Assembly (NCBI GenBank): GCA_012513125.1
Contig: JAAZCS010000287.1
Span: forward strand, 1-11,137
Direction of reading: 5' to 3'
DNA from: Treponema sp.
GTDB taxonomy: Bacteria; Spirochaetota; Spirochaetia; Treponematales; Treponemataceae
DNA length: 11,137 nucleotides
Below the pieces are notes generated by a model. That model saw only the letters and a program-made list of their open reading frames with translations. It did not search any database and had not been told where the DNA came from. Positions 1,255 to 3,367 of this stretch are shown in pieces. Position numbers and translations under genes: made by a program. The first letter of the stretch is position 1; every line of letters begins with the position of its first letter.

Positions 1255-1344
1255 GTGCCTTGTGGAAAGAAGAGAAAACGCCAGAAGATGGCGACACATA
1301 AGCGAAAGAAGATGCTTAGACGTAATCGACATAAGAACAAGTAG
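1255..1344 (+). CDS. AURKAIP1/COX24-domain small basic ribosomal protein (bS22/mS38-like)
   Basis: This very short gene encodes 29 residues, of which more than half are Lys, Arg or His. The pattern is MPCGKKRKRQKMATHKRKK followed by MLRRNRHKNK. It matches small bacterial proteins annotated as AURKAIP1/COX24 domain proteins. That domain is shared with mitochondrial ribosomal protein mS38 and mycobacterial bS22, which bind rRNA in the small subunit. Translation starts at GTG 1255, seven bases after AGGAG (1243-1247), and stops at TAG 1342. The gene has its own strong promoter and a rho-independent terminator, so it forms a monocistronic mRNA of about 185 bases. It is easily missed because it is short and has a GTG start. 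The family call is fairly secure from the KKRKR-x-KM-x-x-H-K-R-K-K-x-L-R-R-x-R pattern; ribosomal location is inferred from relatives. Confidence 0.88.
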   Translation: MPCGKKRKRQKMATHKRKKMLRRNRHKNK

Positions 1345-1374: not shown

Positions 1375-1414
1375 AGACCGCGATAGTTGAAAGACTGGAG
1401 CGGTCTTTTTTTTT
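1375..1414 (+). terminator. Rho-independent terminator after the small ribosomal-protein gene
   Basis: AGACCGC (1375-1381) pairs perfectly with GCGGTCT (1400-1406) and is followed by a T run at 1406-1414. The 18-base loop can form a small inner helix (AGT 1385-1387 with ACT 1394-1396). It lies 30 bases after the small gene's stop and about 45 bases before the expected start of dxs, so it should reduce read-through into dxs. Confidence 0.85.
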
Positions 1415-1459
1415 GAAGCTTCTCTGCTTTTTAATATTACTTCTTAATGGGGAAATTAA

Positions 1460-3367
1460 ACGTTACTGTCAAAAATTTCATCACCTGATGATATAAAAAA
1501 ATATAATCAAAAAGAAATCTCTGAATTAGCAAGTGAAATTAGAAAAACTATAATTGATATTGTTGGAAAAAATGGTGGTCATTTGGCTAGCAATTTAGGC
1601 GTAGTTGAATTGACAATAGCTCTTCATCGTGTTTTTGAAAGTCCATCTGATGCGATAATTTGGGATGTTAGCCATCAGTGTTATGCCCATAAGTTGATTA
1701 CTGGAAGATATAAAGATTTTTCAACATTGCGTAAAAAAGATGGTATTACAGGTTTTACAAATTCAAATGAAAGTGAACATGATTTTTTTATAAATGGACA
1801 TTCATCCACGTCAATTTCAACTGCATTGGGATTGTTGACATCTTGGGAATTGCAAAATAAGCACGGCAAAGTTATCGCTGTTATTGGAGATGGTGCATTA
1901 ACTGGAGGAATGGCCTTGGAAGGGCTTTCGAATGCGGGGCTTATTCAGAAAAATTTAATCGTCGTTTTAAATGATAATCAAATGTCAATTGAACATAATA
2001 CAGGTGCTATTTCAAGCTATTTAAGTAGATTAACGATGTCTCATCAATATCAGAAATTTAGATATGGATTTGATAAATTGATTGATAAAATACCTTATTT
2101 AAATACTTTTTTTAGAAAATTCATTTTTAGATTTAAAAGATCTTTGAAAGGATTATTATTAACTAATAATTTATTTACGGATTTAGGTTTTGAATATGTA
2201 GGTCCATTAGATGGTCATAATGAGGCTGGACTTGAAAGAGTTTTTAGAAAAGTAATGAAGCTTCAAGGTCCGGTTGTTGTTCATGTTGTTACAAAGAAAG
2301 GCAAAGGTTATAGTCCTGCTGAAAATCATCCTTAAATTTTTCACGGAGTCGGTCCATTTTGTACAAGTGATGGTACTGTTGAAAAATATGATACATTAAG
2401 CTTTACAGAAGCATTTAGTAACGAAATTGTAGAATATGCGTCTAAAAATGATAAGATTGTAGCAATTACAGCCGCTATGGCAAAAGGAACAGGATTGTCA
2501 GCCTTTGAGCGGAAATTTCCAAATAGATTTTTTGATGTAGGTATTGCAGAAGAACACGCAGTAACTTTCGCTGGTGGATTGGCAAAAGGGGGATTGATTC
2601 CCGTTGTTTGCATTTATTCAACATTTATACAAAGGGCAGTAGATCAAATTATTCATGATATTACAATTCAAAAGGCTCATGTAGTAATAATGTTAGATCG
2701 TTCCGGGGCGGTTCCTGCTGATGGAATAACTCATCAAGGGATGTTTGACATTCCTCTTTTTAGATGTATTCCAAATTTGCAAATGATTACAGTTTCTAGT
2801 TCGATAGATTTAAAATTGTGTTTTGAATGGGCTGTTGAAAAAGGAAACTCAGTAATAATTAGATATCCAAAACTTTCATGTCCTACAGAAATTCCAGAAT
2901 TTACACAGGATGTTCAGATTGGAAAAGGTATTTTTGTATCATGTTCGCGTTTTTTAATATCGAATATCACAGAATTCCAGTTGATTTCAAGACAAAATAA
3001 AGCTCTTATTGTATGTACAGGCGGAATGTATAATGAAGTTCAGAAAGCAACTAGGTCAATAGTCTTAAATAATGGCTATGCAGACATTTTCATTCTTCGT
3101 TTTATAAAACCTTTTGATCTTGAGTATTTTTGGTCTTATGCAAAAAAATATAAAGGAATAGTGTTTGTAGAAGATAGTGTAAAAATTGGTGGAATAAGTG
3201 AATATTTGAATGGATTTTTGGCAAAACGAGAATTTTACAATACAAAAATATTAGCATTTAAAGATGAATACATAAATCAAGGCACAAGAGATGAAATTTT
3301 GGAATATGAACAAATTTCGTCAAAAAATATAGAGGAAGCTGTATTTAATTTATTCAATGTCAAATAA
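1460..3367 (+). pseudogene. dxs: 1-deoxy-D-xylulose-5-phosphate synthase, interrupted by an in-frame stop and lacking a normal start
   Basis: Dxs condenses pyruvate and glyceraldehyde 3-phosphate with thiamine diphosphate, the first step of the MEP isoprenoid pathway. One frame covers the family's usual length (636 codons from 1460). Numbering from 1460, it shows the N-terminal GGHLASNLG, DVSHQ (His72), GHSSTSIS (His114), the thiamine-diphosphate motif GDGALTGG (143-150) with NDN (171-173), GIAEEHAVTF with catalytic Glu364, Arg392 in STFIQR, and DGITHQG (His425). Two lesions are visible. TAA at 2333-2335 (codon 292) falls between AENHP and FHGVGPF, where the family has an amino acid. The expected start at 1460, 7 bases after GGGG (1449-1452), is ACG, with TAA at 1457 closing the frame upstream. 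The first usual start codon is TTG 1583, which would remove 41 conserved residues. The open parts are 1460-2332 and 2336-3367. A terminator lies just upstream and no clear promoter was seen. The otherwise intact sequence points to very recent decay or to assembly error. Confidence 0.85.

Follow-up and report, generated by a model that had tools for sequence, protein, structure and literature searches.

A probably private interior stop codon and a putative ACG start codon in dxs of a gut Treponema

The dxs locus and its features

The stretch of DNA analysed here, hereafter the window, comprises 11,137 nucleotides and is the entire contig C112 of a metagenome bin (G000; 406 contigs, 80.6% complete). 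The source bin is an uncultured T. bryantii-like gut Treponema, and T. bryantii XBD1002 belongs to the same genus. The window carries dxs, the gene for 1-deoxy-D-xylulose-5-phosphate synthase, with two oddities, namely a stop codon in its interior and the absence of a standard start codon. The features of the locus are as follows.

1255..1344, + strand: gene for a 29-residue basic protein with a GTG start, upstream of dxs, used as a control gene
1375..1414, + strand: terminator-like hairpin (about -17 kcal/mol) and nine consecutive T, in the gap that separates dxs from the small upstream gene
1449..1453, + strand: GGGGA, Shine-Dalgarno-like, ahead of the ACG (-5.5 versus a median of -8.9 kcal/mol in ACG genes)
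1457..1459, + strand: in-frame TAA immediately 5' of the ACG, which rules out starts farther upstream in the dxs frame
1460..1462, + strand: ACG, putative start codon of dxs; relatives carry ATG, TTG, GTG, ATT or ACG at this position
1460..3367, + strand: dxs, 635 codons plus the stop TAA 3365-3367, broken once
1466..2293, + strand: Pfam domain PF13292 (DXP_synthase_N), 375.5 bits
1583..1585, + strand: TTG, first codon of the database protein P0001; 41 residues are lost, including the GGH of GGHLASN
2333..2335, + strand: in-frame TAA just past the N-terminal (TPP-binding) domain; residue 292 of 635 with ACG 1460 as residue 1

The DXP_synthase_N score of 375.5 bits compares with a Pfam cut-off of 21.2. 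The encoded protein is 89% identical to the database protein P0002, whose best structure match is the Dxs structure PDB 2o1s, and 69-72% identical to the remaining 118 of the best 120 database matches, leaving P0001 aside. The product of the small upstream gene presumably resembles the small proteins with an AURKAIP1/COX24 domain.

The terminator-like hairpin in the window lies 45 nt ahead of the ACG, and a consensus scan placed a hairpin at 1389-1409, overlapping it. This arrangement is common in the genus, as a hairpin followed by a T run was found at most 150 nt upstream of the dxs start in 137 of 153 loci. The distance from the T run to the start codon has a median of 30 nt and is 35 nt or less in 84 loci. 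In many loci a separate promoter would have little space here, suggesting that dxs may be transcribed by read-through past the terminator-like hairpin. A known RNA element was rejected for the window, as no Rfam family matched there at gathering thresholds.

The interior TAA codon

The initial annotation described an in-frame TAA in the middle of an otherwise intact dxs. We confirmed that TAA 2333-2335 is in frame, that it lies just beyond the end of the PF13292 match (2293) and that the Dxs sequence continues on both sides (...KGKGYSPAENHP, stop, IFHGVGPF...). Behind it the frame stays open up to TAA 3365-3367. This assembly hence lacks a single unbroken Dxs chain, the TAA standing at residue 292. 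The frame is interrupted only once. The description as otherwise intact had overlooked that a standard start codon is missing as well.

Searching 200 genomes of the genus at an E-value of 1e-60 yielded a dxs match in 185, and the 15 unmatched genomes were all less than 90% complete. In the 85 good genomes, with completeness of 90% or more and contamination of 5% or less, dxs was matched without exception. A set of 155 loci was examined, consisting of the window and 154 further loci of the same genus, with 30 of the 185 matched genomes lying outside this set. A stop ahead of residue 560 occurs in the window and in none of the 154 others; in three of these (L145, L205, L234) the dxs frame is open to the end of the extracted stretch. 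Four loci flagged as possible precedents (L020, L148, L176, L221) were rejected, since their flagged stops are the normal C-terminal ones. Likewise, a frameshift in the dxs of genome G011 was rejected, as the two pieces of the match share one frame and the corresponding locus L026 has no interior stop. At the stop column, the 152 other loci compared encode glutamate (72), alanine (39), serine (30), aspartate (7), glutamine (3) or valine (1). Aligning the dxs genes of relatives, which had been proposed as a check, thus revealed glutamate in all of the 25 nearest relatives and no interior stop in 154.

The best database match, P0001, is identical to the window at 593 of 593 compared residues outside the stop and has glutamate at the stop itself. 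P0001 begins at TTG 1583, so that the first 41 residues of the window lie outside this comparison. Its cluster counts four member sequences and nine contigs, the longest of 30,446 nt, and some of these contigs may belong to the same assembly. It had been suggested that the stop could have arisen from two compensating indels, a loss of AC and a gain of TT beside the T run. We found no support for this, because glutamate stands in the same phase in P0001 and in the same column in relatives; with a glutamate codon in the same phase in near relatives a single substitution suffices and the two-indel account becomes unnecessary.

The disabling lesion is seen in contig C112 of the bin, while an intact and otherwise identical protein exists in the database. 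Signs of further decay are absent, the frame being open elsewhere and the 593 compared residues identical to those of the intact protein. Fixation of the TAA in the species is therefore unlikely, and the codon is most likely a consensus error of the draft bin or an allele that is rare or arose very recently. The initial annotation had offered a young pseudogene, an assembly error or stop read-through. Of these, an assembly error agrees with the data, and so does a recent private allele, because the intact, otherwise identical protein exists and dxs occurs in all of the good genus genomes; read-through is neither needed nor supported.

The search for a second dxs, also proposed at the outset, found none above the cut-off in the contigs of the bin, which is about 81% complete. 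A match to PF13292 below the cut-off (18.6 bits) lies on contig C62, where the open frame spans 661 residues, and was absent from the full-length search; we take this frame to encode a transketolase. For dxr, two fragments were found (G000:C15:4-753 and G000:C238:113-262), neither of which is above the cut-off alone. The middle part of dxr is missing between the two contigs, a sign of the fragmented assembly. The bin also contains ispH, and HMG-CoA reductase gave no match in this bin of about 81% completeness. The retention of dxr fragments and ispH together with the missing match to HMG-CoA reductase suggests that the MEP pathway is in use in the source organism, as far as gene content can tell.

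These data bear on three other explanations of the stop. We regard it as unlikely that dxs is a young pseudogene, recently inactivated in a strain that lives on imported isoprenoids or on an undetected second dxs. The stop is present in the bin, after all, and with about 81% completeness a second dxs could be missing. This explanation is opposed by the existence of the intact P0001, by the retained dxr fragments and ispH in a bin in which HMG-CoA reductase was not found, by a dxs frame with no second break and by the presence of the gene throughout the good genomes of the genus. Far less probable is a split enzyme, in which the stop separates domains one and two and the halves are made apart and then assemble as in split transketolases. 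The position of the stop just past PF13292 would suit such an arrangement, and split-chain transketolase structures (6yak, 6yaj) exist. Yet there is no in-frame ATG, GTG or TTG at 2336-2476, the next ATG, at 2477, would lie inside the second domain, and P0001 as well as the 154 examined relatives are unsplit. Even less credible is that programmed read-through or recoding of the UAA yields full-length Dxs. Its sole point in favour is that both halves are conserved in frame, and it is countered by the lack of a stop at this place in all 154 relatives, by the sense residue in P0001, by miaA and folP in the window, which also end at TAA, and by the lack of an Rfam element at gathering thresholds in the window.

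The start codon of dxs in the genus

The dxs frame of the window is closed upstream by TAA 1457-1459 and contains no ATG, GTG or TTG until TTG 1583, which sits within the conserved GGHLASN block. The position of the start codon was assigned by homology, which covered 153 loci; contig ends cut two further ones. At the homologous position, these loci carry ACG (41), ATT (22), ATG (26), TTG (26), GTG (4), CCG (1) or AGG (1), and others start one codon later with ATG (22), TTG (9) or GTG (1). In 28 of the 153 loci, including the window, the frame is closed and lacks ATG, GTG and TTG through codon +18, and these carry ACG (19) or ATT (9). As the groups were defined by the codon, invariance within a group carries no meaning alone. 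Among threonine codons at the start position, ACG accounts for 41 of 42, the exception being an ACT that is followed by ATG; in the bodies of the dxs genes, 900 of 4592 threonine codons (20%) are ACG. This 41 of 42 and the 28 closed frames are the informative counts, and both come from related loci and are not independent. As four single-contig genomes (G043, G048, G049, G053) have ACG at the start position, it cannot be put down to the fragmentation of bins. The dxs genes of T. bryantii XBD1002 and NK4A124 carry ATT at the start position. The codon next to the start is TTG in 3 of 22 ATT loci and ATT in 24 of 41 ACG loci, and in these the start may lie at either codon.

The onset of coding constraint coincides with this position. 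In the ACG group, amino-acid identity does not exceed 0.20 over the 15 upstream codons and rises sharply from the start onward, and from codon +1 bases 1 and 2 of the codons are mostly constrained, with base 3 being freer. The ATT, TTG and ATG groups share this onset, with upstream identity maxima of 0.29, 0.17 and 0.14, respectively. The commonest spacing between the start codon and the central A of the Shine-Dalgarno (SD) sequence is 8 nt in the ACG, ATT and TTG groups alike. A match to the SD of at least 4 nt was found 18 to 4 nt ahead of the start in 37 of 41 ACG and 19 of 22 ATT loci; the window itself matches the 16S tail over 3 nt only (GGA). From these features we infer that dxs initiates weakly at a near-cognate codon, ACG or AUU, with which bacterial proteins very rarely begin.

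Pairing with the 16S tail differs between the groups. Its median is -3.35 kcal/mol for ATG (n=48), -6.85 kcal/mol for TTG and GTG (n=40) and -7.4 kcal/mol for ACG and ATT (n=63); in ACG loci alone it reaches -8.9 kcal/mol. For ACG and ATT against ATG the difference has a p of 1e-12 uncorrected for kinship. We also compared SD strength between pairs of loci that share no branch on a FastTree of the 153 proteins, on which start codons change at least 26 times and the standard or non-standard state at least 13 times. The SD was stronger with non-ATG than with ATG starts (mean 7.1 vs 0.4 of 11 pairs, median p 0.031). The comparison of ACG and ATT with ATG was not significant in such pairs (4.6 vs 0.3 of 8, median p 0.125), nor was that of ACG and ATT with all standard starts (3.4 vs 1.7 of 10, p 0.69). 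Compensation by a stronger SD is thus suggestive.

An initiator tRNA dedicated to ACG by a CGU anticodon was rejected, as one exact stem-loop pattern gave no match in 59 genomes of the genus; the anticodon stem-loop of the normal initiator tRNA gave one match in the bin's own genome. Moreover, we rejected non-standard starts as a genus-wide habit, since three control genes have standard codons. Of 146 loci, the small upstream gene starts with GTG in 115 and with ATG in 30, and a contig end cuts the remaining one; the gene was found at none of nine further loci. For dxr and infC, the best-scoring 30 loci each from 79 searched genomes each were inspected, a looser test than that for dxs, and the surroundings of the first conserved block contained a standard codon in all 30 dxr loci and in 28 of 30 infC loci, the remaining two infC loci lying outside the search motif. 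As far as three genes can tell, the non-standard start would not be general in the genus. The infC loci (L244-L273) mostly carry TTG behind a near-perfect AGGAGG rather than the AUU of E. coli or the AUA of S. aureus.

Database records place the N-terminus of Dxs differently. P0001 is cut at the TTG, and P0002 and P0003 begin ahead of the conserved start position and may reach into the terminator region. TTG 1583 as the start of P0001 is probably mis-called, since 41 residues would be lost with it, among them the GGH of GGHLASN, and the N-termini of all three proteins seem mis-called. A near-identical short N-terminal form was not found among the best 120 database proteins, in which fragments may be merged in clusters. 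The ORF caller used in this study does not accept ACG as a start, and ACG is not known to be among the start codons of common gene callers. With ACG outside these start codons, the N-termini of Dxs in the genus are liable to mis-calling, as the three proteins suggest.

Such records also raise the alternative that dxs starts elsewhere, by an upstream extension or as a short form from a downstream TTG, and that ACG or ATT is incidental. Database proteins do begin at other places, P0001 downstream and P0002 and P0003 upstream, and 26 of the 63 ACG or ATT loci (16 of 41 and 10 of 22, respectively) have an in-frame ATG, GTG or TTG upstream. Nevertheless, 36 of the 63 are closed upstream without a standard codon and one more runs off its contig. 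The upstream codons are without coding constraint, and in all 28 loci that lack a standard codon up to +18 the start position is ACG or ATT. In the window, the upstream codon is TAA and the downstream TTG would drop the GGH block. We consider a start elsewhere improbable, a little more so than the young pseudogene.

Proposed reading and comparison with known systems

Taken together, we think it quite probable that the dxs of the window has a private interior TAA and an ACG start. The window carries the only dxs found in the bin, a gene predicted to be functional in the species. The interior TAA would be a private single base change, either an error of the draft consensus or a null allele that is rare or arose very recently, and neither a fixed pseudogene nor a recoded stop. 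The gene would begin at ACG 1460-1462, a putative near-cognate start for which the normal initiator tRNA would presumably serve. Across the genus, dxs starts appear to be spread over ATG, TTG, GTG, ATT and ACG, with stronger SD pairing on average at non-ATG starts, and the gene lies just behind a terminator-like hairpin in most loci. The likely effect would be a low and possibly IF3-sensitive expression of the first enzyme of the MEP pathway. Cellular initiation at ACG and the weakness of this start are what we infer from sequence comparison, as are transcription by read-through and any regulation. More tentatively, and somewhat against the odds in our judgement, selection might keep dxs of the genus on near-cognate starts (mostly ACG, also AUU) and behind a terminator as a weak gene sensitive to IF3 or growth state.

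The interior stop would be ordinary and cautions against diagnosing pseudogenes on the strength of a single draft bin. The start codon is out of the ordinary. Near-cognate starts are known in bacteria, and ACG in dxs would be an added case. If initiation at ACG and AUU is true, the 153 loci form a natural series in which one gene swaps ATG, TTG, GTG, ATT and ACG, and the question why bacteria retain near-cognate starts becomes directly testable. If selection for near-cognate dxs starts is true as well, this would be the first conserved ACG initiation in a core bacterial enzyme, and the entry step of isoprenoid synthesis would depend on a weak gene that is sensitive to IF3 or growth state. Among the literature matches listed, which covered mainly open-access papers, there was no report of dxs start codons in Treponema, nor of bacterial enzymes with a conserved ACG start.

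Non-AUG starts have been described for infC (AUU in E. coli, AUA in S. aureus), pcnB (AUU) and the S. aureus genes ccpN, cvfC1 and citZ in a study in which near-cognate starts gave about 10% of the expression of an AUG reporter in poor medium and had extended SDs (PMC13009471). In the text of that paper ACG does not occur. The dxs genes share with the infC and pcnB kind a near-cognate start with an SD ahead. In contrast to these, dxs encodes a metabolic enzyme, and its commonest non-standard codon is ACG, with a mismatch at the second base. Unlike infC as known elsewhere, the infC loci of this genus have standard codons in reach. According to Belinky 2017, the SD is stronger with GUG and UUG than with AUG, and a single switch to AUU occurred among 61,358 ancestral AUG starts (PMC5622118); ACG is likewise absent from its text. 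By comparison, dxs shows at least 13 changes between standard and non-standard starts in one gene and one genus. In one in vitro study, IF3 was reported to accept no pairing other than Watson-Crick at the first and second base of the codon (PMC10158994). Such a restriction implies that an ACG start should be weak and sensitive to IF3, and it speaks against efficient ACG starts.

In comparison with the Dxs family, the gene in the window is full-length and has the Dxs domains, and it differs by its interior stop and the absent standard start. Split-chain transketolases (6yak, 6yaj) likewise have a break between the N- and C-terminal parts; in contrast to these, two products are not evidenced for dxs.
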